Assembly (NCBI GenBank): GCA_902594485.1
Contig: CACJMJ010000007.1
Coordinates: 1 to 37,993 of the forward strand
Reading direction: 5' to 3'
DNA length: 37,993 nucleotides
Source of the DNA: an uncultured Bacteroidota bacterium
GTDB taxonomy: Bacteria; Bacteroidota; Bacteroidia; Flavobacteriales; Flavobacteriaceae
Positions 7,125 through 37,993 of the stretch are shown here, piece after piece (position 1 is the stretch's first letter; every line of letters starts with the position of its first letter). Below the pieces are notes generated by a model, which was not told the origin of the DNA, ran no database searches, and was given only the letters and a program-made list of their open reading frames with translations. The translations under genes were made by a program, and so were the position numbers.

Positions 7125-8861
7125 TTAATTTGATAGATCCTTTAATTGTTCTTTAGTTAATTTAGATGGTGCGTCTATCATTAGATCTTTACCAGAGTTG
7201 TTTTTTGGGAATGCTATAAAATCTCTGATTACATCTTTTCCTTTAAAAACTGCAGCAAGTCTATCAAGTCCAAAAGCAATTCCCCCATGAGGTGGAGCGC
7301 CATACTTTAAAGCATCAATTAAAAATCCAAATTGACTAGTGTATTCTTCTTTACTCATACCTAGAAGCTCAAATATTTTCATTTGAGTATCAAAATCATG
7401 AATTCTTATTGAACCACCACCAATTTCATTTCCATTAAGAACTAAATCATATGCATTTGCAATCACTTTATCTGGTTCCGTATCTAGTAAATCTAAATAT
7501 TCAGGTTTTGCTGATGTGAATGGATGATGCATTGAAAAAAATCTTTTTTCATCTTCATCCCATTCAAAAAGAGGAAAATCAGTTACCCATATTGGACATG
7601 TTTTTTCATAATCTATTAATTCAAATCTTTTTGCAAGTTCTATTCTTAAGGAACCCATTTGCATCAAAGATTCTTTTTTATTGCCTGATATAATAAATAA
7701 TATATCCCCTGGTTTTGATGATGCTCTATCCAAAATTACTTTTAAATCTTCTTCAGAAAAAAACTTATCAAATGAAGATTTAATTGTAGAATCTGAATTA
7801 TGTCTAATCCATAAAAGTCCAGATGCTCCAATTTGTGGTCTTTTAATCCAATCGGTTAAATTGTCAATTTCCTTTCTTGTAAGTTCAGACTTATTTTCAA
7901 CCTTAACACAACATGAAAAATTATTATTATCAAAAACCTGAAAACCTTTACCTTTTGTTTCATTTGTTATATCATTAATTCTTAAGTCATATCTAAGATC
8001 AGGTTTGTCAATTCCATAGTTTTCAATTGCATCATTATAAGTCATCCTTTCAAACTTAACATTTTCTTGATTTAAAAATTTAGAGAATAACCTTGACATT
8101 AATCCTTCAAACTGTCTAAATATGTCTTCTTGATCAACAAAAGACATTTCACAATCAATTTGAGTAAATTCAGGCTGTCTATCAGCTCTTAAATCTTCAT
8201 CTCTAAAACATTTTACAATTTGATAGTATTTATCAATTCCGCCTATCATCAATAATTGCTTGAATATTTGAGGTGATTGAGGTAGAGCATAATAATGCTC
8301 TGGGTTTAGTCTACTTGGAACAATAAAATCTCTTGCACCTTCTGGTGTGGATTTTATTAAACAAGGTGTCTCTATATCAATGAATCCATTTTTAGAAAGA
8401 AAATTCCTTACTTCCAATGATAACTCATGTCTAAACATTAAATTTTCTTTTACTGGTTGTCTTCTAATATCAAGATATCTGTACTTCATTCTTAATTCCT
8501 CACCACCATCAGATTCATTTTCAAGAGTGAAAGGTGGAACGAGAGACTTATTTAAAATCTTCATACTAGACACAAGAATTTCTATTTCACCTGTACTTAT
8601 TTTTTCATTAATATTTTTTCTTTCAATTACATTTCCTTCAACTTCGATTACAAACTCTCTTCCAAGCTCAGCAGCAGCAGAAAATAATTCTTCACTAGAT
8701 CTTTCTTTATCAAATACTAATTGTGTAATGCCATATCTATCTCTTAAGTCAACCCAAATAATAAATCCTTTCTCTCTAACCTTATTTACCCAGCCAGAGA
8801 GTTTGACATTTTGATTTAAATTAGTTTTTGATAATTCCCCGCAATTGTTAGTTCGATTCAT
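7125..8861 (-). CDS. aspS: Aspartyl-tRNA synthetase
   Basis: This class II synthetase of 578 residues charges tRNA-Asp. The N-terminal OB anticodon-binding domain (about 1-110) includes VKLSGWVNKVREKGFIIWVDLRDR. Class II motif 1 lies near MKYRYLDIRR, motif 2 is FRDEDLRADRQPEFTQIDCE near residue 220, and motif 3 is GIAFGLDRLAAVF near the C-terminus. The bacterial GAD insertion lies between motifs 2 and 3 (about 290-410). Length is normal. The start is ATG at 8861, only 21 bases after the RND permease stop on the same strand; that gap contains TATATTTA, a one-mismatch -7 box. It may therefore be read both from the efflux operon and from its own promoter. Confidence 0.98.
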   Translation of the reverse strand: MNRTNNCGELSKTNLNQNVKLSGWVNKVREKGFIIWVDLRDRYGITQLVFDKERSSEELFSAAAELGREFVIEVEGNVIERKNINEKISTGEIEILVSSMKILNKSLVPPFTLENESDGGEELRMKYRYLDIRRQPVKENLMFRHELSLEVRNFLSKNGFIDIETPCLIKSTPEGARDFIVPSRLNPEHYYALPQSPQIFKQLLMIGGIDKYYQIVKCFRDEDLRADRQPEFTQIDCEMSFVDQEDIFRQFEGLMSRLFSKFLNQENVKFERMTYNDAIENYGIDKPDLRYDLRINDITNETKGKGFQVFDNNNFSCCVKVENKSELTRKEIDNLTDWIKRPQIGASGLLWIRHNSDSTIKSSFDKFFSEEDLKVILDRASSKPGDILFIISGNKKESLMQMGSLRIELAKRFELIDYEKTCPIWVTDFPLFEWDEDEKRFFSMHHPFTSAKPEYLDLLDTEPDKVIANAYDLVLNGNEIGGGSIRIHDFDTQMKIFELLGMSKEEYTSQFGFLIDALKYGAPPHGGIAFGLDRLAAVFKGKDVIRDFIAFPKNNSGKDLMIDAPSKLTKEQLKDLSN

Positions 8862-26036: not shown

Positions 26037-27332
26037 TTGGATAATTTAAATATTTTAATCATTACTTACTACTGGCCACCATCTGGGGGTTCAGGAGTTC
26101 AAAGATGGATGTTCTTTGCAAAATATCTCAAGCAACTTGGACATAATCCTATAGTTTTGACTGTTGATCCAAAATATGCCTCTTATAATTTAATTGATAA
26201 TTCACTCACAGATCAAGTTAAAGATATTAAGACACATAAAACATATAGCTTTGAGATCTTGAAATTATATTCACTATTAAAGTCGGGTAATAGAACTAAA
26301 GTAATACCTCAGTCTTATATTCCGAATCAATCATTATTTGATAAAATAACATCATTTATCAGATTAAATTTTTTTATACCAGATTCAAGAATCGGGTGGA
26401 ATTATTTTGCATTTAAAAAAGCTAAAAAAATTATAGAAAACAATAATATTAACTGTGTAATTACTACAGGCCCTCCACATTCAACTCATTTAATTGGTAA
26501 AAAAATTACTGAAAAATTCAAATTAAAATGGGTAGTTGATCTAAGAGATCCTTGGGCTGAAATCTTTTATTTAAAAGATAAATTTAGATTTAAATACGCT
26601 AAAAAATTAAATCTAAAATTTGAGTCAGATGTTCTTAATTCTGCTGATTCAATTATAACAACTGTTGGTGACAGATATCAAAATATCTTAAAAGAAAAAT
26701 TATCAAATTCTAAGAAAATTCATAAAATTTACAATGGATATGATAAATCAGTTTATGATAAAATTAAAGAGATTAAGCCTTCTAGCTTTAATATTGTATT
26801 TACAGGTATTCTTTCTAAAAATCATAATTATCAAGTTTTTTACGAAGTATTAAGCTACTTAAAAGATGAGTTTAATGACCTAAATATGATTTTCACTTTC
26901 GCAGGTAAAATTGACAAAGAGATTAAAAAACTTTATTCACAAAAAATTAATTTTATTGACAACGGTTATGTAATCCACGAAACAGCAATTGAGATTATAA
27001 AGTCATCTCATTTATTAATTAATTTTAATTACTTAAACACAGAAAAAACTGATATGGTGTCAGGGAAGCTTATAGAGTATCTTGCCTCAGGTTCTCCAAT
27101 TATAAACTTTTCAAATTCGGCAGAAGAATCAAGTTCCCTATTGAAAAACTCCACAAAATCTTTTAATGCAGACAGTAATGATACAATTAAGGTTGTAAAC
27201 TTTATAAAGAAAGAATATGACAGTTGGTTAGATGGAAACTATGAAAAAGATATCCCAAAAAATATAGAGTCTCTTTCAAGGAAAAAATTAACAAATGATT
27301 TAGCTGAATTGATAAAAAACTTATTTAATTAA
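26037..27332 (+). CDS. Glycosyltransferase family 4-like protein
   Basis: This 431-residue GT-B-fold enzyme probably adds a sugar to a surface polysaccharide or lipid. The N-terminal donor-independent domain begins LIITYYWPPSGGSGVQRW (about residues 6-23), a glycine-rich acceptor loop common in such proteins. VVDLRDPWAE lies near residue 168. The C-terminal domain has NIVFTGILSKNHNY near residue 255 and the loosely conserved nucleotide-sugar region KLIEYLASGSPIINF near residue 345. There is no signal peptide. The start is TTG at 26037, one base after the DUF3078 stop; the next in-frame ATG would remove the acceptor loop. It overlaps the convergent nadD by 12 bases. Confidence 0.88.
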   Translation: MDNLNILIITYYWPPSGGSGVQRWMFFAKYLKQLGHNPIVLTVDPKYASYNLIDNSLTDQVKDIKTHKTYSFEILKLYSLLKSGNRTKVIPQSYIPNQSLFDKITSFIRLNFFIPDSRIGWNYFAFKKAKKIIENNNINCVITTGPPHSTHLIGKKITEKFKLKWVVDLRDPWAEIFYLKDKFRFKYAKKLNLKFESDVLNSADSIITTVGDRYQNILKEKLSNSKKIHKIYNGYDKSVYDKIKEIKPSSFNIVFTGILSKNHNYQVFYEVLSYLKDEFNDLNMIFTFAGKIDKEIKKLYSQKINFIDNGYVIHETAIEIIKSSHLLINFNYLNTEKTDMVSGKLIEYLASGSPIINFSNSAEESSSLLKNSTKSFNADSNDTIKVVNFIKKEYDSWLDGNYEKDIPKNIESLSRKKLTNDLAELIKNLFN

Positions 27333-27893
27333 TTTAAAGTATTCCAAAACCTCTTTTGGCACCAATGTGTCAATTTTTTTCTTCGACTTGATTAACTCTC
27401 GAATATGGCTACTAGAAATTTTCACTTTAGGGGCATCTACCAACTTAATATTAGAATTAGATAAAATTTCTTCAGGAATTTTTTGGTCAGTATCTCTTGG
27501 GTAGACATATACTTCAGCAATTTCAATAATTTTTTTATAATCTTTCCACTTATTAAACCCTACTAAATTATCTTCTCCAATTAATAGAATCAACTTATTG
27601 TACTTATGTCTTTTTTTAAATTCCTTTAAAGTATCAATTGTAAAATTAGGCTTAGACATTTTAAACTCAATATCTGATACTCTAACATTATCAAACTTTT
27701 TAAATACAGTTTCAGCCATCTTTAGTCTATCTATGTCACTTATTAATTCATCTTCCTTTTTAAAAGGACTTTGAGGGCTAATAACAACCAAGACCTCATC
27801 TAATTCAGATAGGTTTGAAAAATATTCAGCTAATGTAACGTGACCATTATGTATAGGGTTAAAAGTTCCTAGGTAAAGACCCACATTACTCAT
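27321..27893 (-). CDS. nadD: Nicotinate-nucleotide adenylyltransferase
   Basis: NadD joins nicotinate mononucleotide with ATP to form deamido-NAD in the cytoplasm. The 190-residue protein has the nucleotidyltransferase signature GTFNPIHNGHVTLAEYF (about residues 9-25, HxGH at His15-His18) and the PFKKEDELI substrate-binding region. LLIGEDNLVGFNKWKDY follows near residue 102, and the C-terminal ISSSHIRELI motif is near residue 160. It is the last gene of yicC-gmk-nadD and overlaps the gmk stop by eight bases. Confidence 0.95.
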   Translation of the reverse strand: MSNVGLYLGTFNPIHNGHVTLAEYFSNLSELDEVLVVISPQSPFKKEDELISDIDRLKMAETVFKKFDNVRVSDIEFKMSKPNFTIDTLKEFKKRHKYNKLILLIGEDNLVGFNKWKDYKKIIEIAEVYVYPRDTDQKIPEEILSNSNIKLVDAPKVKISSSHIRELIKSKKKIDTLVPKEVLEYFKLIK

Positions 27894-28452
27894 CTATAAA
27901 TTCTTTTATTAATGTAAGGGCAATTTTTTTTGACTCTTCAAGATCGTTATTAATGATAATATTATCAAATTTTGATGCATAATCTAATTCACTTTCAGCT
28001 TTTTTAATTCTTATATCAATTTCTTCTTTAGAAACATCACCTCTTTCAATTAATCTTCTTTTTAAGATATCGATACTTGGCGGCATAACAAATATGGAGA
28101 GAGTCTCATTTGGAAACATACCCTTTATATTAGCACCTCCAACAACGTCTAAATCAAAAATTGCTATTTTTTTATCTTTCCAAATCCTATTTAATTCAGC
28201 TTTAAGTGTACCATAATAGTTACCTCCGTAAACCTCTTCATACTCAATAAATTCATCATTTTTAATTCTAGCCTTAAATTCTTCGCTGCTTAAAAAATAA
28301 TAATCTTTTCCCTCCTTTTCTTCACCTCTTGCTTTTCTTGAAGTTGCGGAAATTGAAAATTCGATTTCACTAAAAGTTTTAAGTATATACTTTACTAAAG
28401 TGGTTTTGCCTGCACCTGAAGGAGCTGAAAAAACAATAAGCTTTTTAGTCAT
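27886..28452 (-). CDS. gmk: Guanylate kinase
   Basis: Gmk phosphorylates GMP to GDP. The 188-residue protein begins with the P-loop FSAPSGAGKTTLVKYIL (about residues 8-24) and has SATSRKARGEEKEGKDYYFL for GMP binding (about 35-54), EYEEVYGGNYYGT near residue 71 and FDLDVVGGANIKG near residue 98. The C-terminal lid contains RLIERGDVSKEEIDIR. Length is normal. The ATG overlaps the yicC stop by one base (TAATG). Confidence 0.97.
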   Translation of the reverse strand: MTKKLIVFSAPSGAGKTTLVKYILKTFSEIEFSISATSRKARGEEKEGKDYYFLSSEEFKARIKNDEFIEYEEVYGGNYYGTLKAELNRIWKDKKIAIFDLDVVGGANIKGMFPNETLSIFVMPPSIDILKRRLIERGDVSKEEIDIRIKKAESELDYASKFDNIIINNDLEESKKIALTLIKEFIDE

Positions 28453-29306
28453 TATGCTATATTAAAAATATTTTGCTTTATTTTTTCATTTTCTTCTTTC
28501 ATATTGACTACCATACATTGAATCTTAAAATTGTTAGCCTTTGAACCAATTGTATTTATCTCTCTGCCAATTTCTTGAGAAATGAAAGAGAGTTTCTTTC
28601 CTTGAGCATATTCTGAATTAATTTCCGAAATGAAAAATTTTAAATGATTCCTTAATCTAATTATTTCTTCATTAATATCTAATTTTTCAATATAATATAT
28701 AATTTCCTGTTCAAGTCTAGATTTATCAAACTTATTTTCAAGTTCTTTTAGATAGGTTTTAATTTTATTTTTCTTTTCCTTAATTCTTGATGGTTCAATT
28801 GAGGTGATTTTTTTAATATAGTTATCTATTTTTGAGATACTTTTTTTAAGGTCTTTACTTATAGCTTCGCCTTCCTTAATTCTATACTTATTTAATTCTT
28901 CAATAGACTTATCTATCATTAACTTAACCCTTTTTTTATCATTTTTATTAAGTTTTATTTCGGACTCTATAACCTTATCGCTACTTAACAAACTTGAGAT
29001 TATTTGAGATTCATTAATATCAAAATCTTTTTTTAATTCCTTGATGTAGCCTTTAACTTTTTGAGTGTTAAATGGAATGACTAATCCATTATTGGAGTTA
29101 TTAATAGTTATAGATACGTCAATTTTGCCCCTAATAATTTTTTGATTAATTGACTTTCTTAAATATTCGTCAATGAATAAAACAGGATCATCAATTTTTA
29201 AATTTAAATCGAGTGTTTTTGAATTTAGTGAACGAATTTCAATGACTACATTATGATTATTTATGAGCTTCTCATCTTTCCCAAAGCCAGTCATTGAATA
29301 GATCAT
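28452..29306 (-). CDS. YicC/YloC-family endoribonuclease
   Basis: The 284-residue protein starts with the characteristic MIYSMTGFGKDE and ends in the DUF1732 region, FISQEIGREINTIGSKANN (about 245-263). The YicC N-terminal domain spans about 1-155. YicC of E. coli has been reported as an RNase acting on small RNAs, and the gene is widely linked to gmk, as here. Lysine content is very high, as expected for this AT-rich genome. It starts nine bases after the stop of the DUF1080 lipoprotein gene, so it may be read from the upstream sugar operon; no separate promoter space exists. Confidence 0.93.
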   Translation of the reverse strand: MIYSMTGFGKDEKLINNHNVVIEIRSLNSKTLDLNLKIDDPVLFIDEYLRKSINQKIIRGKIDVSITINNSNNGLVIPFNTQKVKGYIKELKKDFDINESQIISSLLSSDKVIESEIKLNKNDKKRVKLMIDKSIEELNKYRIKEGEAISKDLKKSISKIDNYIKKITSIEPSRIKEKKNKIKTYLKELENKFDKSRLEQEIIYYIEKLDINEEIIRLRNHLKFFISEINSEYAQGKKLSFISQEIGREINTIGSKANNFKIQCMVVNMKEENEKIKQNIFNIA

Positions 29307-29315
29307 ATTTAAATA

Positions 29316-30035
29316 CTATAGTTCTCGAATTTTTATATTCCTGAATTTAACATCTGTACTATGATCTTGTAATGCTATTTTTCCAGTTTTAAATTTACCA
29401 AAATCAGGAGCATATGTTGCATCTGAGCGTTCACTTCCAAGAGCAAACTTTGATTTGGATACCAATTTATCCCACTCAGTTCCTGATAGAGGATATGTGA
29501 AGGCAAGCTCACCATTAAACTTTACAGTTCCTAAATTATTCTGATGATCAATTTTGAGAATAACATGATTCCAACTTCCGTAACTGTTAACTTTTAAATT
29601 TGAATTATTTGATTTAACAAGGTCAAAAAGTGATGGAGCATATTCAAGATCAGAACCAGCATAGCCATTATCATTATCTAAAATCTGTATTTCAGGACCT
29701 GTAGAAAATGCAGAGAATTCAGGAATCTGTTTTACTCCATAAAAAATACCACTATTGCCCCCTTTTGATACATTCCATTCAAGAGAAAGCTCAAAGCTTG
29801 TGTATTCCTTATCTGTTAGAATATCATGTCCTGATTCATCATCATTATTTGTAAAGATTAATTCTCCATTATTTATTGACCATTGACTTCCAACTGGATC
29901 ACCGTCATATGAATGCCATCCATTAAAAGTTTCACCATCAAAAATATATGTCCATTCGTCATTACTTTTTTCAGAACAACTAATGAATAAAATCAATAGA
30001 GTTATTGTAGATAGTCTACATACTAAATTTTTCAT
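29316..30035 (-). CDS. DUF1080 (3-keto-disaccharide hydrolase family) lipoprotein
   Basis: Pfam names this concanavalin-like domain the 3-keto-disaccharide hydrolase family. From the chosen start the protein has 239 residues. A lipoprotein signal has its lipobox at LFISC (Cys20), and the domain runs from WTYIFDGETFNGWHSY to the closing DVKFRNIKIREL. Inner landmarks are SLEWNVSKGGNSGIFYGV, GPEIQILDNDN and GSWNHVILKIDH. An in-frame ATG at 30068 would add 11 residues (MKNSKILSSLR) and an unusually long n-region; I prefer ATG at 30035. It is a paralogue of the next gene upstream but lacks an insertion of about 12 residues near the C-terminus. It would be anchored in the periplasm or on the cell surface. 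Confidence 0.88.
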   Translation of the reverse strand: MKNLVCRLSTITLLILFISCSEKSNDEWTYIFDGETFNGWHSYDGDPVGSQWSINNGELIFTNNDDESGHDILTDKEYTSFELSLEWNVSKGGNSGIFYGVKQIPEFSAFSTGPEIQILDNDNGYAGSDLEYAPSLFDLVKSNNSNLKVNSYGSWNHVILKIDHQNNLGTVKFNGELAFTYPLSGTEWDKLVSKSKFALGSERSDATYAPDFGKFKTGKIALQDHSTDVKFRNIKIREL

Positions 30036-30144
30036 TCTTAACGATGATAATATTTTACTGTTTTTCATATAATTTTTTATCTTAATTTATTGATAAATTG
30101 TATTAATATAAAAAAATGTATTACTGCATTAGCACTGCTTAAAA

Positions 30145-30870
30145 TTATAATTCTTTGATTTTAATATTTCTATATTTTACAGTGAATCCATGATCTTGGA
30201 GACCAATACTACCTGTTTTAAATTTTCCAAAAAAAGGTGCATATGTAAAGAAAGGGTGCGCAGGAGTTAAGTTTTCAAAATAACTATCACCATTAAATTT
30301 AGACCTACTAACCATCTTATCCCATTCTGGACCATGCAAAGGAAAGTCATACACTTTCTGACCATTAAATGTTATAGAACCAATATTTTCGTTATGATCA
30401 ATTCTTAAAACTAAATGATTCCACTCACCATATTTATTATACTTAACTCTTCTTAATGGCTTCAAATCATATAGTGCAGGAGCCTTATGCCATCTATTTG
30501 CTTCAAAATTTTCATTATCTAAAACTTGAATCTCAGGCCCAGTCTTCCATGGAGTATTTACCTCGGGAATTTCAACTACCTTAAAAAAGATACCACTGTT
30601 ACCACCCTTACTAATATTCCACTCTAGTGATAATTCAAAATTTGTAAATGTTTCATCAGTAACAATGTCTTGTCCTCTACTCTGATTGTCATTTGGTGCA
30701 GTAAAAACAAGTTCTCCATCATTAACTGACCAATTCTTGCTTATTTCATCACCATTATATTCGTGCCATCCATTTAAAGTTTTTCCATCAAAAAGATAAG
30801 TCCAATCAGAGTCTTGAGAAAACCCAATGCATGTTGTTAAAATTAAAAATGTAGTTAATATTTGTTTCAT
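30145..30870 (-). CDS. DUF1080 (3-keto-disaccharide hydrolase family) secreted protein
   Basis: This 241-residue member of the same family has a type I signal peptide (cleavage after GFSQ, about residue 19) and no proper lipobox, so it is probably soluble in the periplasm. The domain begins WTYLFDGKTLNGWHEYNGD. It contains SLEWNISKGGNSGIFFKV, GPEIQVLDNEN, HKAPALYDLKPL and the C-terminal FGKFKTGSIGLQDHG and VKYRNIKIKEL. Family members cleave glycosides whose sugar carries a 3-keto group; specificity here is unknown. It starts two bases after the TIM-barrel gene stop, within the operon. The 109 bases between it and the lipoprotein paralogue's chosen start hold no clear promoter or terminator. 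Confidence 0.9.
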   Translation of the reverse strand: MKQILTTFLILTTCIGFSQDSDWTYLFDGKTLNGWHEYNGDEISKNWSVNDGELVFTAPNDNQSRGQDIVTDETFTNFELSLEWNISKGGNSGIFFKVVEIPEVNTPWKTGPEIQVLDNENFEANRWHKAPALYDLKPLRRVKYNKYGEWNHLVLRIDHNENIGSITFNGQKVYDFPLHGPEWDKMVSRSKFNGDSYFENLTPAHPFFTYAPFFGKFKTGSIGLQDHGFTVKYRNIKIKEL

Positions 30871-30872
30871 AT

Positions 30873-31925
30873 TTATATATTTAAAATGTTTCTTAAATCT
30901 TCATCATTTGTTTTACCCCCTGCAAAGTCATCAAATTTTTTATCGGTACAATTAATAATTAGATCTTGAATTATTTTTGCACCTTCAGTTGCACCTTGTT
31001 CAGGACTTTTAATACAACATTCCCATTCTAAAACTGCCCATACATCACACCCATATTGAGTCAATTTGGAGAAGATAGTTTTAAAATCAATCTGACCATC
31101 ACCAAGTGATCTATACCTTCCAGCCCTATCAGCCCAATCTAGGTATCCTCCAAAAGCACCCTTTTTACCAGTAGGATTAAATTCAGCATCTTTTACATGA
31201 AAAGATTTTATGAACTCATGGTAATGATCAATGTATGTTATATAGTCAAGCTGTTGCAAAATAAAATGACTGGGATCGTATAATATATTTACTCTTTTAT
31301 GGTTATTAGTTGCTTTTAGAAATCTTTCAAAAGTTACTCCATCATGAAGATCTTCCCCCGGATGAATTTCATAGCAAACATCAACCCCATTCTCATCAAA
31401 TACATCTAAAATTGGAAGCCATCTTTTTGCCAATTCTTCAAATCCCATTTCAACCAATCCTTTTGGAGCTTGAGGCCATGGGTGCCATGTATGCCATAGC
31501 AATGCTCCAGAAAAAGTTGCATGAGCTTTTAGACCAAGTCGCCTGCTGGCAATTGCAGCTTTTTTAACTGTATCCACTGCCCATTTAGTTCTTTCTTTTG
31601 GATTCTTTTTTAAATTATCAGGTGCAAAATTATCAAACATCAAATCATATGCAGGATGAACTGCAACAAGCTGACCTTGAAGATGGGTAGATAATTCAGT
31701 TATCTCAAGACCGTAGGATCTAACCTTTCCAATTAATTCATCACAGTAATCTTGACTATCAGATGCTTTATCCAAATCAATTAGTGAGCTTTCCCATGTT
31801 GGTATCTGAATTCCCTTATATCCTAATTCTGAGGCCCATTTACAGATTCCATCAAGAGAGTTAAATGGTTCAGATTTATCTACAAATTGAGCGAGAAAAA
31901 CTGCTGGTCCTTTTATTGTCTTCAT
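30873..31925 (-). CDS. Sugar phosphate isomerase/epimerase-like TIM-barrel protein (cytoplasmic)
   Basis: The 350-residue protein belongs to the xylose isomerase-like TIM-barrel superfamily (AP endonuclease 2 domain). Probable metal ligands are Glu186 in CYEIHPGED, the Asp and His of YDPSHF, the His of SFHVKDAEF and the final Glu of VLEWEC. It has no signal peptide, so it should act in the cytoplasm on an imported sugar. Relatives lie beside Gfo/Idh/MocA oxidoreductases in many Bacteroidota sugar loci. It starts one base after the oxidoreductase stop. The substrate, possibly a keto-sugar or its reduction product, is inferred only from neighbours. Confidence 0.9.
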   Translation of the reverse strand: MKTIKGPAVFLAQFVDKSEPFNSLDGICKWASELGYKGIQIPTWESSLIDLDKASDSQDYCDELIGKVRSYGLEITELSTHLQGQLVAVHPAYDLMFDNFAPDNLKKNPKERTKWAVDTVKKAAIASRRLGLKAHATFSGALLWHTWHPWPQAPKGLVEMGFEELAKRWLPILDVFDENGVDVCYEIHPGEDLHDGVTFERFLKATNNHKRVNILYDPSHFILQQLDYITYIDHYHEFIKSFHVKDAEFNPTGKKGAFGGYLDWADRAGRYRSLGDGQIDFKTIFSKLTQYGCDVWAVLEWECCIKSPEQGATEGAKIIQDLIINCTDKKFDDFAGGKTNDEDLRNILNI

Positions 31926-31926
31926 T

Positions 31927-33063
31927 TTAATTTAATTTTACCCATGTGTTACCCTTATTGTGAGATTCAACAGCTTTTTCTATAAATAACATCCCTCTTA
32001 AACCATCATTTAGAGTAGGGTACTCTCCCTTAAATTCTTTATCTCCCCTTATCTCTCTTGCTACACCGTTATATATATTTGCCATAGAGTCAAACATACC
32101 TTCAGGATGTCCAGGTGGTAATTTAGTCGAAATTTTTGAAAAATTAGAATTATAATCATGACCTGGTTTGAGAACTTGAAGTGGTTTTGAATCACTTAAA
32201 TAATTAAGATAATTTGGATTTTCTTGTTGCCATTTTAATCCACCTCTTCTTCCATATATAGCAACTGTAAAGCAATTTTCTTCACCTGTTGCAATTTGAC
32301 TAGCTCTAATTACACCTTTTATTTTATCCGAAAACCGAATTAGAATAGTACCGTCAACATCCATTGGATTATCGTCATAAACATAATTTAAATCAGATAA
32401 GAGCTCCTGGACTTCCATTCCAGTTACATATTCTAACATATCAAAAGCATGCGTACCAATGTCACCAATACAACAACTGATTCCTGACTTATCAGGCTGA
32501 AGTCTCCAAGTTTCGGACCTTTTATTACTATCGTGAATTATTGGATTAATCCATCCTTGATAGTACTGAAGATCAACTCTTTGAATATCTCCAATTACAC
32601 CCTCTCTTATCATCTCCTTCATTTGCCTTATCATGGGGTATCCAGTATATGTATATGTTACAGCAAAAGTTAATTTTTTAGATTTATAAATTCGTTCTAG
32701 ATCCTGAGCCTCTTCATAAGTAGTTGTCATAGGTTTCTCACAAATAACACTAAAATTATTTTCAAGAAGCTTTTTAGCCATAGGATAGTGAAGAAAGTTT
32801 GGGGTTAATATTGAGACAACTTGCATCCTCTCACTCTCATCCAATTTTAACTCTTGTTCAATCATTTTGTCATAGTCTTCATAGACTCTAGTTTCATCTA
32901 GACCTATTTCCTTTGCAAATTTTAAGTTCTCGGAATAGTCTGGGTTAAAAACACCACCAATAATAGAATAGCTATCATGCATAGATGAAGCAATCCTGTG
33001 AACAATTCCAATTAGAGAATCTCCTCCTCCTCCAAGAATACCTAACCTAATTTTACTTTTCAA
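31927..33063 (-). CDS. Gfo/Idh/MocA-family NAD(P)-dependent oxidoreductase
   Basis: The 378-residue protein has the N-terminal Rossmann fold starting IRLGILGGGGDSLIG (about residues 5-19) and the catalytic lysine Lys110 in ICEKPMTTTYEEA. The C-terminal alpha/beta domain contains GWINPIIHDS and GDIGTHAFDMLEYVTG, where the His corresponds to the usual active-site histidine. No signal peptide is seen. Such enzymes oxidise or reduce sugar hydroxyl/keto groups; here reduction of a keto-sugar in the cytoplasm is plausible. The start is TTG at 33063; the next in-frame ATG falls after the glycine loop. It overlaps the end of the MFS gene by 11 bases. Confidence 0.92.
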   Translation of the reverse strand: MKSKIRLGILGGGGDSLIGIVHRIASSMHDSYSIIGGVFNPDYSENLKFAKEIGLDETRVYEDYDKMIEQELKLDESERMQVVSILTPNFLHYPMAKKLLENNFSVICEKPMTTTYEEAQDLERIYKSKKLTFAVTYTYTGYPMIRQMKEMIREGVIGDIQRVDLQYYQGWINPIIHDSNKRSETWRLQPDKSGISCCIGDIGTHAFDMLEYVTGMEVQELLSDLNYVYDDNPMDVDGTILIRFSDKIKGVIRASQIATGEENCFTVAIYGRRGGLKWQQENPNYLNYLSDSKPLQVLKPGHDYNSNFSKISTKLPPGHPEGMFDSMANIYNGVAREIRGDKEFKGEYPTLNDGLRGMLFIEKAVESHNKGNTWVKLN

Positions 33064-34261
33064 TTTCTATTTTTTCGTTTTTAAAAGTTAAAATAAAAAT
33101 AACAAGAACTACTGCTGCAAAAATTGCAGGAATAATCCAAATCTGAGTCCAATCATGGCCTGGATCAAGTGCAAATTGATCAGTAACCCTTCCGGCTAAT
33201 CTAAATCCAATAAGCATACCCAAGCCATATGTTGCCAAGGCAATTAACCCTTGTGCTGCACTTTTGTATTTTTCACCAGCTTTAAAATCTGTATAAATCT
33301 GTCCTGAAACAAAGAAAAAGTCATAACATATACCATGAAGAACAATTCCAAAAATTAGCATCCATATGTTAGAGCCCGTATCACCAAAAGCAAACAAAAC
33401 ATACCTTAAACTCCAAGCAAACATACCTACAATTAAAGTTTTCTTTATACCATATTTATTTAAAAAAATTGGTAATAAAAGAATAAATAATGCCTCAGAA
33501 ATTTGCCCTAGAGTCATTACTCCTGCTGCATTTTTCATACCTAGCTCATTAAGAAATAAATTAGCATCTTGATAATAAAAAGCAAGAGGGATACATATTA
33601 GTATAGATGAAATAAAGAATATAAGATATCTGGAGTCATTTAAAAGTTTCAATGCATCAAGACCAAGTATTTCCCTTATACTAGGGCTTTCGTTAGTAGC
33701 TTTAGGAGGTGTTTTAGGTAAACTAAAGCTAAATAAACCTAGTGCTACAGAAACTATAGCTGCAAGATAGAATGTATATTCTAATTTCTGACTTGCTTCC
33801 CAACCAACACCATAGCTAATTACAAGCCCTGCAACTATCCAACCAATAGTTCCCCAGACTCTAATCTTTGGAAACTCCTTAGAAGGATCTTTCATCTGTC
33901 TAAATGCTATAGAGTTTACTAATGCTAAAGTTGGCATATATAAAATCATATAAATTAGAATGTATGGGTAGAATTTATCAAATCCAAGTGCAATAGAACA
34001 CATAAATAAAAGTCCTCCACCCAAAATATGAATTAATGCAAGAATCTTTTCAGCATCAAAATATCTATCCGCAATAAGTCCAATTATAAATGGAGCAATT
34101 ATTGCTCCCCATGATTGAGTTTCATAAGCTAAAGCAATTTCACCTCCAGATGCACTAAATGCTTGAGTCAAGAATGTACCCATAGTCACGAACCAACAGC
34201 CCCAAATAAAAAATTCGAGGAACATCATAATACTTAGTTTAGTATTTATTATTTTATCCAT
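33053..34261 (-). CDS. MFS transporter, nucleoside:H+ symporter-like permease
   Basis: This 402-residue inner-membrane carrier has about twelve hydrophobic helices. The N-terminal stretch MMFLEFFIWGCWFVTMGTFL and the loop GLIADRYFDAEKIL (about residues 61-74) resemble the NupG/XapB-type nucleoside:H+ symporter branch of the major facilitator superfamily. That branch is often found in Bacteroidota sugar operons and annotated there as a sugar permease. Embedded between isomerase and oxidoreductase genes, it most likely imports the sugar product formed in the periplasm. It begins six bases after the exported TIM-barrel gene and overlaps the oxidoreductase start by 11 bases. Confidence 0.9.
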   Translation of the reverse strand: MDKIINTKLSIMMFLEFFIWGCWFVTMGTFLTQAFSASGGEIALAYETQSWGAIIAPFIIGLIADRYFDAEKILALIHILGGGLLFMCSIALGFDKFYPYILIYMILYMPTLALVNSIAFRQMKDPSKEFPKIRVWGTIGWIVAGLVISYGVGWEASQKLEYTFYLAAIVSVALGLFSFSLPKTPPKATNESPSIREILGLDALKLLNDSRYLIFFISSILICIPLAFYYQDANLFLNELGMKNAAGVMTLGQISEALFILLLPIFLNKYGIKKTLIVGMFAWSLRYVLFAFGDTGSNIWMLIFGIVLHGICYDFFFVSGQIYTDFKAGEKYKSAAQGLIALATYGLGMLIGFRLAGRVTDQFALDPGHDWTQIWIIPAIFAAVVLVIFILTFKNEKIEIEK

Positions 34262-34267
34262 AATGAT

Positions 34268-35218
34268 TTAAATTGATTGCCCAACTTTTATTAATAAATC
34301 TCTAGTTGCAATTATTCCATCTTCTTCAGACAGCCTATCACCTTCATATTCAACTCCAATATAACCTGTGTATCCAAAGCTTTTCACAATCTTTAACATC
34401 CTAGTATAATCTATAGTTTTTTCATCACCATTTTCATCAAAATCATTAGATTTTGCACTTACAGCAAATGCTTTTGGCATCATTTCTTCAACCCCTTTGT
34501 AGAAATCATACATCGTTTCACAAGTTCCATCAAAGACAGATCCATAACCTTCATCAGCCATACAGAAATTTCCAAAATCTGGAAGAGTTCCAACATTTTC
34601 CATATTTACACCATTTATTACATTCATAAGCTCAGGAATATTTGAAGTGATTCTTCCATGATTTTCAACAATTACATTAAGGCCTGAACCTTTTGCATAT
34701 TCTCCTAATCTGCCAAGACTTTTTATTGATAGAGCTTTCCATGTTTCAATATCTTTTGAGCCATAAAGATTTAGCCTTACTGATGAGCAATTCATTTCTG
34801 CAGCTGCATCAATCCATAATTTATGGTTATCTATAGCTTGCAATCTTAATTCTTCATTTTCATCTGCAAGATCCCCTTCATCATCAATCATAATAAGGAC
34901 ATTTTCCAAACCATTATCAGATGCAAGTTGATTACTTTTTTTGATAAAATTTTTAACACTTGATGATTTATCATCACTCTTCATTACATCATCGTATAAT
35001 TGATTTACATATTCAAGACCAGTAAATCCGAGATTTTTTGATTTTTCTGCAAATAAATAAGGAGACATTTCTCCTCCATTTATTGCTTTATTTAATGACC
35101 ATTGAGCAAGTGATAATTTAAAAAAAATTTCTTTTTTAGATTGGCATGAAATATATCCCAAAGAGGATATACCTAGTGCTCCTGTTGAGGCTAGTTTGAT
35201 AAATTCTTTTCTTTTCAT
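34268..35218 (-). CDS. Exported TIM-barrel sugar isomerase/epimerase-like protein
   Basis: The 316-residue protein belongs to the xylose isomerase-like superfamily but, unlike its relative downstream, carries an export signal. MKRKEFIKLASTGALGISS resembles a Tat signal with Lys-Arg in place of Arg-Arg, and SLGYISC offers a lipobox with Cys at about residue 25. Candidate metal ligands are the Glu of IVENHG, the Asp of LPDFGNF and the Glu of VEYEGD near the C-terminus. The usual HVKD strand reads AVSAKSNDFD. Tat export would fit folding around a metal before transport. It is the first gene of the minus-strand operon, 97 bases from the divergent GMC gene. Confidence 0.88.
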   Translation of the reverse strand: MKRKEFIKLASTGALGISSLGYISCQSKKEIFFKLSLAQWSLNKAINGGEMSPYLFAEKSKNLGFTGLEYVNQLYDDVMKSDDKSSSVKNFIKKSNQLASDNGLENVLIMIDDEGDLADENEELRLQAIDNHKLWIDAAAEMNCSSVRLNLYGSKDIETWKALSIKSLGRLGEYAKGSGLNVIVENHGRITSNIPELMNVINGVNMENVGTLPDFGNFCMADEGYGSVFDGTCETMYDFYKGVEEMMPKAFAVSAKSNDFDENGDEKTIDYTRMLKIVKSFGYTGYIGVEYEGDRLSEEDGIIATRDLLIKVGQSI

Positions 35219-35250
35219 ATTAAGTGGTTTTATATACTATAAATATAAAT

Positions 35251-35282
35251 TTAAATAATTAATTATGATTTAAATTATTTAA
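35251..35282. repeat. Inverted repeat in the divergent promoter region of the sugar loci
   Basis: TTAAATAATT (35251-35260) and its exact complement AATTATTTAA (35273-35282) are separated by 12 bases in the 97-base region between the two divergent operons. The 22-base centre spacing would put both arms on one face of the helix, as for a dimeric regulator. It is wholly A/T, so chance is a real alternative, and no regulator gene lies nearby. Confidence 0.35.
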
Positions 35283-35315
35283 TGTTAATTTAGAATTGAT
35301 TTCTAATTAAATAAT

Positions 35316-37028
35316 ATGGAGAATACATTTGATGCTATTGTTGTTGGAACAGGTATAAGTGGTGGATGGGCAGCTAAAGAACTAACTGAAAAAGGACTAA
35401 AAACTCTTGTGTTGGAACGTGGTAGAATGATTAATCATATAGATGATTATCATACTGCTAATATGGATCCATGGGACTTCAAAGGGGGTGACAATATTAC
35501 TCAAGATGCTTATAAAAGACAACCAAAGCAAAGTAGGACAGGATATGTAAATAAAGAGTCATCTAGACACTTTTTTGTTGATGACTTAGATCACCCTTAT
35601 AACGACGATGAAAATAAATTTAATTGGATAAGAGGGTATCATGTAGGTGGAAGATCCTTAACATGGGGAAGACATACGTATAGACTTAGTGAATTTGATT
35701 TTGAGGCTAACTTAAAAGATGGGGTAGCTATTGACTGGCCTATAAGATATAAGGATATTTCTCCTTGGTATGACTATGTTGAGCAATACATTGGTGTTCA
35801 GGGAAGATATGAGGGCTTACCTCAGTTTCCAGATGGAAAATTTCTCAAACCATTTGAATTAAATATTTTAGAACAACATATGCGTGAGAGTATTTCTAAG
35901 AACTTTAATGATGGAAGAATACTTTCAAATGCTCGTACTGCTCACATTACTGAAGGAACAAAACCAGGACTAGGGAGAGTTACATGTCAATACAGAAATA
36001 GATGTATGCGAGGATGTCCATATGGCGCATATTTTAGTAGTAATTCTTCTACATTGCCAGCTGCAGAGGCAACTGGAAATATGACATTGATGCCAAATTC
36101 AATTGTCCACGAGATAATTTATGATGAAGATAAAAAAAGAGCAAAAGGTGTTAGGGTAATTGACGCTGAAAATAATAAATCTTATGAGTATTATGCCAAA
36201 GTAATTTTTTTATGTTCGTCAGCAATTGGATCTACATCTATTTTAATGCAGTCCAAATCCAATAGATTTCCAAATGGAATGGGGAATGATTCTGGTGAAT
36301 TAGGACATAACCTTATGGATCATCATTTTCAAACCGGGGCTAGAGGTACTTTTGATGGATTTAAAAATAAAACTACTTATGGAAGAAAGCCAGCAGGATT
36401 CTTTATACCTAGATTTAGAAATATTGGAGGTAACACAAATAGAAAAGATTTCATTAGAGGATATGGTTATCAAGGTGGAGCTGGAAGAGGCTCTATGAGT
36501 ATAGCTAATAGCAAGGAGGAACTTGCAGCATATGGAAAAAGTTTTAAGGAAATTATTGTTCAGGAAGGTGAGTGGTCAGGATCAATGGGTGCTTTTGGTG
36601 AAATTTTACCATATCATGATAATCAAATGTCTTTAAATTATGATAAACTAGATAAATGGGGACTTCCAACGGTTACATTTAATGCAACAATTAGAGAGAA
36701 CGAGATAGCAATGAGAAAAGATATGAAACAACAAGCAGTTGAAATGCTTGAAAGATCTGGTTTTAAAAATGTAGTTGGAACAGGGTCTGATGATAACTAT
36801 GTTTTTGGAAATGGAATTCATGAGATGGGTACTGCTAGAATGGGAAGAGATCCCAAAACATCTGTTTTAAACGGAAATAATCAAATTCATAGTGTTAAAA
36901 ATGTATATGTCACTGATGGTGCATGTATGACATCAGCAGGAAATCAAAACCCTTCAATAACTTATATGGCTTTAACTGCAAGAGCTGCAAATCACGCCGT
37001 AGAAGAATTAAACAAACAAAATATATAA
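35316..37028 (+). CDS. GMC-type FAD sugar dehydrogenase, catalytic subunit
   Basis: This 570-residue glucose-methanol-choline oxidoreductase resembles the catalytic subunit of membrane-bound gluconate/glucose/fructose dehydrogenases. FAD binding is shown by IVVGTGISGGWAAKEL and LVLERGR (about residues 9-39) and by GGRSLTWGRHTYRL near residue 111. The catalytic pair is His502 (HEMGTARMG) and Asn545 (GNQNPS), 43 residues apart as in other GMC enzymes. Cys224, Cys230 and Cys234 (CQYRNRCMRGCP) lie where FAD-glucose dehydrogenase holds its Fe-S cluster. It has no signal peptide and would be exported with the Tat-signal small subunit encoded two bases downstream. Substrate and regiochemistry (C3 oxidation is suggested by DUF1080 neighbours) are inferred. 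Confidence 0.93.
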   Translation: MENTFDAIVVGTGISGGWAAKELTEKGLKTLVLERGRMINHIDDYHTANMDPWDFKGGDNITQDAYKRQPKQSRTGYVNKESSRHFFVDDLDHPYNDDENKFNWIRGYHVGGRSLTWGRHTYRLSEFDFEANLKDGVAIDWPIRYKDISPWYDYVEQYIGVQGRYEGLPQFPDGKFLKPFELNILEQHMRESISKNFNDGRILSNARTAHITEGTKPGLGRVTCQYRNRCMRGCPYGAYFSSNSSTLPAAEATGNMTLMPNSIVHEIIYDEDKKRAKGVRVIDAENNKSYEYYAKVIFLCSSAIGSTSILMQSKSNRFPNGMGNDSGELGHNLMDHHFQTGARGTFDGFKNKTTYGRKPAGFFIPRFRNIGGNTNRKDFIRGYGYQGGAGRGSMSIANSKEELAAYGKSFKEIIVQEGEWSGSMGAFGEILPYHDNQMSLNYDKLDKWGLPTVTFNATIRENEIAMRKDMKQQAVEMLERSGFKNVVGTGSDDNYVFGNGIHEMGTARMGRDPKTSVLNGNNQIHSVKNVYVTDGACMTSAGNQNPSITYMALTARAANHAVEELNKQNI

Positions 37029-37030
37029 AT

Positions 37031-37576
37031 ATGAATAGAAGAGAGGCAATAAAAAATATCAGTATTTCTTTTGGTTCAATAACCCTGTCAACAGGTGTAT
37101 TGAGTATGATTCAGTCATGTCAAACAGATAATATTGATTGGTCTCCTGATTACTTCAAAAAAAATCAAATCAATTTTATAGATAGGATATTTGAAATAAT
37201 TATTCCAGAGACTGATACACCAGGTGCTATTTCATTAAAGCTTTCAAGATTTGTAGATGCCTATATTTCTAGAAATGTTCCAAAAGAAAATCAAACCGAA
37301 TTGAATGCAGGAATAAATGAATTTATTGATGTTATATTAAAAAATGAAAACAAAAGAAGACTTAATGAAATAGATAGTATTTCACTTGAGAAACATTTAT
37401 CTAATCATTTAGATTCTGAAAGCTATATAGATTCTAATGGAAAGAATTATTCACAGCTTTGTGGTTTATTCAGAGAAATGTCTGTCAGAGCATATAAGTT
37501 AACTGAATATGTAATGACAAATAAGCTAGGTTATGTCCCAATACCTGGATATTATGATGGAAATGTTGATGTTTAA
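37031..37576 (+). CDS. Gluconate 2-dehydrogenase subunit 3 family protein (small subunit)
   Basis: The small subunit is required for export and stability of the GMC partner. I use ATG at 37031, two bases after the GMC stop, giving 181 residues; the frame is open further upstream only inside the GMC gene. The N-terminus MNRREAIKNISISFG is a twin-arginine signal, and IQSC at about residue 32 is a lipobox-like site, so a lipid-anchored periplasmic protein is likely. The domain follows from FIDRIFEIIIPETDTPGA (about residue 49), the family hallmark, through the helical body to LGYVPIPGYYDG. It ends in a TTAA shared with the convergent azurin gene. Confidence 0.92.
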   Translation: MNRREAIKNISISFGSITLSTGVLSMIQSCQTDNIDWSPDYFKKNQINFIDRIFEIIIPETDTPGAISLKLSRFVDAYISRNVPKENQTELNAGINEFIDVILKNENKRRLNEIDSISLEKHLSNHLDSESYIDSNGKNYSQLCGLFREMSVRAYKLTEYVMTNKLGYVPIPGYYDGNVDV

Positions 37577-37993
37577 ACTACTATAAACTCACCCATCATT
37601 AGTTGATAATGACCTGGAAAAGAACAAATAAACACATATTTACCTGGCTCAGGGGCGTCAAAAGTAATTGAATCACTTTCTCCACCTCCTAGCATTTTAG
37701 TGTAAGCTATCTCATTATCTCCTTCAGGAATATATTCAGAGTTTCTTGCACCTGCTGCTCTTAATGCATATTCATTTACATCAACATCTTTTTTTATTAA
37801 TACAAAATTATGACCCATTGAGCTGGCTGGGAACCTTCCATTATGGTTGAGTGTAAGTGTTACTTTTTGATTAGCATTTACTCTAATAATTTTTTTATCA
37901 AATTTCATTTGATCATTTGAATTAAGAATAACATTATTAGACGTTGTATTACTTTGGACAGTAGTAGCCTCTTCTTTTACTCTTTCGTATTGA
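37573..37993 (-). CDS. Azurin-like blue copper protein (N-terminus outside window)
   Basis: Azurin is a one-electron carrier of the periplasm. The reading frame continues upstream of the Met at 37908 to the window edge without a stop, and NSNDQMKF includes the azurin NDQM motif, so that Met is internal and the gene is cut at its 5' end. The type 1 copper ligands are all present: Gly-His in SMGHNFVL, and Cys, His and Met in FICSFPGHYQLMMG with azurin spacing. Only one Cys is visible; both cysteines of the Cys3-Cys26 disulfide of Pseudomonas azurin are absent. The part before NDQM (KEEATTVQSNTTSNN) looks like a linker after a signal or lipoprotein anchor. It may accept electrons from the neighbouring dehydrogenase. 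Confidence 0.93.
   Translation of the reverse strand, partial: QYERVKEEATTVQSNTTSNNVILNSNDQMKFDKKIIRVNANQKVTLTLNHNGRFPASSMGHNFVLIKKDVDVNEYALRAAGARNSEYIPEGDNEIAYTKMLGGGESDSITFDAPEPGKYVFICSFPGHYQLMMGEFIVV

Follow-up and report, generated by a model that had tools for sequence, protein, structure and literature searches.

Oxidation-first breakdown of glycosides, and gene clusters devoted to it, have already been published (PMC9007349, PMC10628242, PMC7676230). The cluster analyzed here spans positions 29,316 to 37,993 of a 37,993-nucleotide stretch of DNA (the window), contig CACJMJ010000007.1 of an uncultured member of the Flavobacteriaceae. One arm encodes an exported triosephosphate isomerase (TIM) barrel protein, an MFS permease, a Gfo/Idh/MocA oxidoreductase, a cytoplasmic TIM barrel protein, and two exported DUF1080 proteins. 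The divergent arm encodes a GMC flavoprotein and its twin-arginine translocation (Tat) small subunit (subunit 3), followed by azurin. The initial annotation offered this arrangement as a new alternative to glycoside hydrolases, a claim of novelty that cannot stand because the route, as far as the available texts of those three reports go, is in print. The window holds a variant of a known pathway, and what looks new is a carrier slot beside the small subunit that is occupied by azurin or by cytochrome c.

Each of the closest described systems shares part of this design. In the available text of PMC9007349, the lacABC genes of Caulobacter share their cluster with genes for a DUF1080 protein, a transporter, two epimerases, and a reductase, and what becomes of the 3-keto sugar is not settled there; Pedobacter, Indibacter, and Algoriphagus are named as Bacteroidetes carrying LacA-like proteins plus DUF1080, and BT2157 of Bacteroides thetaiotaomicron is described as a 3-ketotrehalose hydrolase. 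The window differs from the C. crescentus system (lacABC plus CCNA_01705/01698) by the azurin gene beside its dehydrogenase and by its two divergent arms. LacB is a cytochrome c, and a c-type cytochrome is a feature of LacABC systems. The BT2157-type pathway uses a single-domain DUF1080 enzyme, as does the window, but BT2157 lies beside the Gfo-type 3-dehydrogenases BT_2158 and BT_2159 (NCBIfam names), on whose models the window Gfo protein scores 32.4 versus 750 and 21.5 versus 650.

The available text of PMC10628242 describes an Agrobacterium operon for oxidation by GlycDH, β-elimination by AtOGE, hydration by AtHYD (an assignment that the authors term preliminary), and a final reduction by a Gfo enzyme. 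The window resembles that operon, as so described, in its flavin-type dehydrogenase with a TAT-pathway protein, its Gfo-family oxidoreductase, and its probable hydratase step. Unlike the Agrobacterium operon, it contains an MFS permease and has no AtOGE-like eliminase by sequence, with DUF1080 proteins and an exported barrel in that place. GlycDH is a member of the GMC family. Levoglucosan, too, is broken down by oxidation, elimination, hydration, and reduction, and the LgdA-B1-B2-C system of Bacillus smithii has the step order that is likely for the window and, like the window, encodes a Gfo-family enzyme, but it begins with another enzyme (the available text names no GMC/subunit-3 pair) and includes no DUF1080 protein there (PMC7676230). 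The same text attributes a glucose 3-dehydrogenase to Cytophaga marinoflava, which is Leeuwenhoekiella marinoflava in the NCBI taxonomy; two other species of that genus, L. blandensis and L. aequorea, carry the cluster.

Proposed route across two compartments

Gene content, family membership, hydratase kinship, co-occurrence, layout, the carrier slot, and a motif in the shared gap form the comparative support for a two-compartment, non-hydrolytic (oxidation-first) glycoside pathway, which we consider likely. From these observations we infer every catalytic activity, the substrates, which sugar is imported, and that azurin receives the electrons. On the periplasmic side, C3 of a glucoside or disaccharide would be oxidized by the Tat-exported GMC/subunit-3 enzyme, whose electrons would go to azurin (in relatives, to a small cytochrome c). 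The resulting 3-keto-glycoside would then be cleaved, mainly by β-elimination, by the DUF1080 proteins, possibly with help from the exported TIM barrel, and the permease would bring in the released keto sugar, either 2-hydroxy-3-keto-glucal or 3-keto-glucose. In the cytoplasm, the second TIM barrel would hydrate the enone, and the Gfo/Idh/MocA enzyme would reduce 3-keto-glucose to glucose.

The 3-keto route spanning periplasm and cytoplasm had been proposed from the outset and is, by comparison with relatives, still the best reading; its inside steps, given as "reduced and isomerised", are better described as hydrated and reduced. This correction comes from the cytoplasmic barrel, which matches PDB entry 8ro4 ("2-hydroxy-3-keto-glucal hydratase") with an E-value of 1.3e-157 and 63.5% identity over 348 positions. 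The protein is a probable 2-hydroxy-3-keto-glucal hydratase rather than an isomerase and thereby gains a specific pathway step. Because of this identity, the order oxidation, β-elimination, hydration, and reduction is likely, and we infer that 8ro4 is the AtHYD protein of Agrobacterium. The alternative of an IolE-type dehydratase was rejected, since the TIGR04379 score is 58.3 bits (cut-off 290) and the match to 8ro4 is far closer. The hydratase is present in 21 of the 25 genomes of the genus, and its best full-length match has 68-100% identity in 48 of 49 genomes, with a split copy in the remaining one (G017). In that genome, represented by two loci (L050 and L126), the hydratase and GMC genes are each divided over two open reading frames (ORFs), and the second GMC piece contains one TAG, which may reflect either an error in sequencing or gene decay. 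The Gfo protein has its family domains above cut-off, and its closest PDB entry (3v5n) is titled just "Oxidoreductase".

Cleavage of 3-keto forms outside the cell by DUF1080 proteins, also part of the initial annotation, is retained as the best reading, and the kinship of the cytoplasmic barrel to 8ro4 makes β-elimination with subsequent hydration its probable form. The two proteins score 152.7 and 126.8 bits on PF06439 against a cut-off of 26.8. Solved relatives of protein 2 include 3hbk, 3h3l, 8v31, 3osd, and 8rr2, and protein 1 likewise matches solved DUF1080 structures. A C-terminal Q-x-H occurs in all 60 DUF1080 proteins longer than 200 amino acids at the named loci (54 QDH, 3 QHH, 2 QYH, and 1 QNH), the named GMC loci being the best 80 of 588 confirmed matches. 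A third DUF1080 gene lies elsewhere in the genome (G000:C6:33233-33931).

The exported barrel was modelled from 36 sequences with a mean predicted local distance difference test score (pLDDT) of 92.6. Its top fold match, 4ovx, has a title that gives no function, and ranks 2-14 are all C-glycoside deglycosidases (DgpB-C, DfgA-B, and CGD entries), one member of which acts on 3-keto-glycosides according to the available text of PMC13273386. These enzymes resemble the barrel in fold but not in sequence (14-20% identity), and an isomerase, IolI, and sugar 3-epimerases follow with E-values only slightly weaker. Hydratase His243 aligns with Ser254 of the exported barrel in a profile alignment of 1.6% probability. 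On the basis of the model, we suggest with low confidence that the exported barrel may be a second eliminase.

Families were assigned by Pfam/NCBIfam profile scans against family cut-offs for 29 of the 31 window ORFs of at least 150 amino acids (all except 27886-28452 and the overlapping ORF 8347-8814), and export signals were judged by eye on N-termini. This check of ORFs and Pfam domains agrees with the gene content, strands, and divergent GMC, Tat subunit, and azurin genes as first described (Table 1). The close packing of the first five minus-strand genes, with gaps of at most 6 bp, was also borne out: successive spacings are 6 bp, an 11-bp overlap (at the TTG start of the Gfo gene), 1 bp, and 2 bp. 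The two DUF1080 genes are 76 bp apart, and a 97-bp divergent gap precedes the GMC gene. Both PF00732 and PF05199 exceed their cut-offs in the GMC protein, and the adjacent subunit 3 scores 58.4 bits on PF13618 (cut-off 23.4). The subunit 3 ORF opens at 36923, and its likely start is the Met at 37031, directly ahead of NRREAIKN. Tat-like and lipobox-like N-termini are seen on the exported TIM barrel and subunit 3, and signal or lipoprotein N-termini on both DUF1080 proteins; by eye, no export signal was found at the N-termini of the Gfo protein and the cytoplasmic barrel. Azurin, having lost its N-terminus at the contig end, scores 104.1 bits on TIGR02695 against a cut-off of 105.1.

Table 1. 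Features of the cluster, by position in the window
Feature	Coordinates	Strand	Basis
Exported DUF1080 protein 2, putative periplasmic 3-keto-glycoside lyase/hydrolase	29316..30068	-	PF06439; QDH histidine kept
Exported DUF1080 protein 1, putative periplasmic 3-keto-glycoside lyase/hydrolase	30145..30870	-	PF06439; QDH histidine kept
Cytoplasmic TIM barrel, probable 2-hydroxy-3-keto-glucal hydratase	30873..31925	-	PF01261; kinship to 8ro4
Gfo/Idh/MocA oxidoreductase, probable 3-keto-glucose reductase, cytoplasmic, TTG start	31927..33063	-	PF01408/PF22725/PF02894
MFS permease, nucleoside:H+ symporter family, putative importer of cleaved keto sugar	33053..34261	-	PF03825, 397.3 bits
Exported xylose-isomerase-like TIM barrel, putative second periplasmic 3-keto-glycoside eliminase or epimerase	34268..35218	-	PF01261; model pLDDT 92.6
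AT-rich motif in 97-bp divergent gap, candidate shared control element	35238..35265	.	Conserved in genus
GMC flavoprotein, probable glycoside 3-dehydrogenase catalytic subunit	35316..37028	+	PF00732/PF05199
Tat small subunit of dehydrogenase (subunit 3 family)	37031..37576	+	PF13618; RR signal and lipobox-like Cys by eye
Azurin, truncated by contig end, probable electron acceptor, carrier slot	37573..37992	-	PF00127; TIGR02695 E 6.1e-30

Linkage of the two arms

Co-occurrence was counted over 149 relatives, 25 in the genus and 124 outside it, whose kinship makes the counts non-independent. Hydratase and GMC genes occur together in 47; 2 have just the hydratase, 6 just GMC, and 94 neither. The corresponding counts for hydratase and DUF1080 are 49, 0, 12 (DUF1080 alone), and 88. 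Outside the genus the two sets, in the same order, are 27/1/5/91 and 28/0/8/88. Among the best 80 GMC loci, subunit 3 was found anywhere in the stretch in 75, Gfo in 58, the exported barrel and the hydratase in 56 each, the permease in 53, DUF1080 in 51, and azurin in 32. Where at least 7.5 kb is visible upstream of GMC, 45 of 65 loci have the TIM barrel, Gfo, hydratase, and DUF1080 genes on the divergent strand. This check of gene order across relatives upholds the earlier suggestion that the two arms belong together, and, judged from sequence comparison, the arrangement is beyond chance because it is conserved across the family.

The genus, whose members include AG-447-E18, AG-893-B06, MED-G122, and MED-G11, is known from marine single cells and metagenomes. 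Farther afield, plasmids of Hymenobacter and Pseudoalteromonas carry the same gene types in rearranged order; in Hymenobacter a c-type cytochrome gene and DUF1080 are among them. The hydratase, Gfo, subunit 3, and GMC genes also occur in Croceicoccus, with no DUF1080 among the genes listed, and in Phyllobacterium the hydratase and Gfo genes sit beside an ABC transporter with no GMC gene in the stretch. Genes resembling nadD, gmk, and yicC (window 27321-29306) lie directly downstream of the cluster, a neighborhood that recurs in 39, 40, and 34 of the 80 named loci, respectively. A second GMC paralog of about 33-35% identity is found in many genus genomes (e.g., G002:C18:2037-3728).

The divergent gap itself contains a conserved stretch in the genus, TATAAATATAAATTTAAATAATTAATTA (13 sequences; the copy in L125 differs), which occurs once in the window at up to 3 mismatches versus a shuffled mean of 0. 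The 14-base core recurs, one copy per locus, in 30 of 183 loci, several of which are one genome represented twice. A script placed 28 of these 30 copies between the barrel and GMC genes, and coordinates place the other two (L122 and L183) likewise. The motif is present in 16 of the 17 genus stretches that show both genes, the one lacking it being L048. It is a candidate for a shared control element of both arms, as judged from its conservation and position, or it may be a general feature of divergent promoters. Elsewhere in the genome, two more places match at 3 mismatches, versus 0 for a reversed control pattern, and one of them (L186) lies between two divergent ORFs that by eye resemble recG and uvrD.

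Several observations weigh against the oxidation-first reading or parts of it. The closest solved structures to the GMC protein are fructose and glucose dehydrogenases, none a proven 3-dehydrogenase, and the closest PDB entries of the Gfo protein have no stated function. DUF1080 and AP_endonuc_2 are broad families. Entry 8bvk (AtOGE) is absent from the PDB matches of either barrel at an E-value of 1e-3, its presence in the searched PDB copy being unconfirmed, and the cleaving enzyme is therefore assigned by family alone. Moreover, in 20 of the 65 loci the divergent strand is missing the exported barrel, Gfo, hydratase, or DUF1080 gene, or more than one of these, and in 12 of these 20 it has no window-like arm gene at all. 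Four of the 12 were inspected (L092, L103, L120, and L137): upstream on the GMC strand lie a Gfo-family gene in L092 and a DUF1080 gene in L137, and in L120 an S15 peptidase gene lies just upstream of GMC. GMC/subunit-3 pairs without a divergent arm were noted in L092, L097, L103, L106, L120, and L137. Because such armless loci exist, a GMC gene alone does not predict this exact pathway.

These findings lend themselves to two other explanations. Perhaps the GMC pair oxidizes sugar only for energy, passing electrons to the respiratory chain, and the minus-strand genes are a different operon, for polyol or keto-sugar catabolism, that is a neighbor by chance. The dehydrogenases closest to GMC in the PDB, the 12 armless loci, and the weak matches of the Gfo protein and cytoplasmic barrel to inositol-pathway models, far below cut-offs, would fit such a separation, but hydratase and GMC are discordant in just 8 of 149 genomes, the arm faces GMC in 45 of 65 loci, and the barrel is 63.5% identical to a named 2-hydroxy-3-keto-glucal hydratase, so we regard this explanation as quite improbable. 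A more serious contender, to which we would give somewhat less than an even chance, is that the DUF1080 proteins both eliminate and hydrate outside, that 3-keto-glucose is imported, and that the cytoplasmic hydratase merely salvages enone. According to the available text of PMC13273386, the H275N variant of a B. thetaiotaomicron lyase is hydration-deficient, so the parent enzyme hydrates. Both window DUF1080 proteins keep the C-terminal QDH histidine of the invariant Q-x-H, which we presume to correspond to H275, taking that lyase to be a DUF1080 protein. Against hydration outside, the hydratase is strongly conserved, and all 49 genomes that have it also have DUF1080, a pattern suggestive of a main-line function. 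The cluster thus raises a transport question, namely which of the keto sugars is the one that the permease carries.

The carrier slot beside the small subunit

The initial annotation listed azurin without assigning it a role. The gene is indeed present, and it is now a probable electron acceptor. Considering 72 rows that include the window and a limit of 700 bp from subunit 3, the slot tail to tail with subunit 3 holds azurin in 18, a small cytochrome c in 11, both in 5, and neither in 38. Mapped onto a quick 80-row GMC tree, these states require 12 changes versus a shuffled mean of 30.5, or 6 when empty slots are ignored. With a limit of 2.5 kb and at least 1 kb visible downstream, loci with the exported barrel in view have azurin in 14, cytochrome in 11, both in 5, and none in 23, and those without it in view have azurin in 6, cytochrome in 1, and none in 13. 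All 16 slot cytochromes are phmmer homologs of one another's queries, and PF00034 was found in 10 of the 10 tested. In five genus loci a small cytochrome c occupies the slot besides azurin.

An EamA gene is a frequent third member of this neighborhood. It is found no farther than 3 kb from subunit 3 in 17 of 17 azurin loci, 7 of 11 cytochrome loci, 5 of 5 double loci, and 4 of 38 empty loci, or in 29 of 33 filled slots at the named loci; Pfam confirmed the identity of all four EamA proteins tested. In the closest named relative, AG-447-E18 (GMC 97% identical), a 498-bp azurin ORF ends at subunit 3 and an EamA gene follows, and in L098, L105, and L125 the EamA gene abuts subunit 3 with nothing between. 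The order in double loci is subunit 3, cytochrome, azurin, EamA, and therefore much of the pattern is accounted for equally well by swapping or by an ancestral pair that lost one of its members. On both histories, one carrier is able to work in the absence of the other.

Of the 38 genomes with both azurin and GMC, 28 have the two genes no more than 6 kb apart (19 of 21 in the genus and 9 of 17 outside). That this proximity might be a general habit of azurin genes was ruled out with ten azurin loci whose genomes yielded neither a GMC nor a hydratase gene (L164, L165, L166, L169, L170, L171, L175, L176, L177, and L178), none of which has a window-like cluster gene nearby. On balance, we think it fairly probable that the slot carrier accepts electrons from the dehydrogenase. 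The opposing view, which we judge unlikely, holds that azurin and the small cytochrome are mere bystanders in an old azurin/cytochrome/EamA neighborhood that abuts the cluster and loses genes at random. It is true that no carrier lies within 700 bp in 38 of 72 rows, and since 34 of these rows also lack an EamA gene within 3 kb, the slot is confined to one part of the tree. In 10 of 38 genomes, azurin and GMC are separated by more than 6 kb or are on different contigs. Three further observations tell against a carrier role: empty-slot loci keep the cluster (L182, L125, L098, and L105); in L172, azurin lies about 2.9 kb from EamA and also near a DUF1080 gene with GMC on another contig; and in L175 and L177, from two order-level genomes, azurin is directly downstream of a MauG-type di-heme peroxidase gene and can therefore serve other partners. 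Set against the bystander view are the ten cluster-free azurin loci, the alternation of azurin and homologous small cytochromes in one slot, often ahead of the same EamA gene, and the c-type cytochrome gene inside the Hymenobacter cluster. That Hymenobacter cytochrome has no match at an E-value of 1e-6 in the genus (0 of 17 positive genomes). No c-type cytochrome was found in the window cluster, where azurin abuts subunit 3 and the contig then ends; one may lie elsewhere.

Phototrophs swap plastocyanin and cytochrome c6. It is tempting to speculate that a comparable metal swap operates here, in which one periplasmic sugar 3-dehydrogenase of marine flavobacteria would use copper azurin and iron cytochrome c interchangeably, the carrier gene being retained or lost at a single site between those for the small subunit and EamA, while the permease imports the enone 2-hydroxy-3-keto-glucal, but this combined proposal is tentative and, in our estimation, doubtful. 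We know of no other importer of an enone sugar. In titles and the openings of abstracts, we found neither a link between azurin and a GMC/subunit-3 dehydrogenase nor an alternation of azurin with cytochrome c, which is weak evidence of novelty given that subscription journals are mostly uncovered.

Glycoside hydrolases and the biology of the genus

The initial annotation had also stated that classical glycoside hydrolases are absent from the window. This is true of the 29 scanned window ORFs, none of which matches a glycoside hydrolase family, but the genome itself carries a piece of a GH3 gene elsewhere. Four glycosidase families, GH3, GH13, GH31, and GH97, were surveyed in the 25 genus genomes, in an assembly set where the window genome (860,652 bases) is 57.7% complete. 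GH3 is found in 21, this genome included, and GH97 is above cut-off in 4 (7 at an E-value of 1e-5). GH13 and GH31 are found in 0 of 25, a count to be read with just 2 of the 25 genomes being at least 90% complete. By these profile matches, two large α-glucosidase families look absent from the genus, and GH3 is common. Oxidation may then be the main way in which these cells open α-glucosides such as sucrose or trehalose, the substrate being a guess.

The cluster represents a non-hydrolytic glycoside route that would have been retained in a very reduced marine lineage. If the metal-swap slot is real, it would be the heterotroph counterpart of the phototroph exchange of plastocyanin and cytochrome c6. 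The azurin/cytochrome slot lets one ask which carrier serves GMC/subunit-3 dehydrogenases and whether the supply of copper and iron in the ocean selects that carrier.

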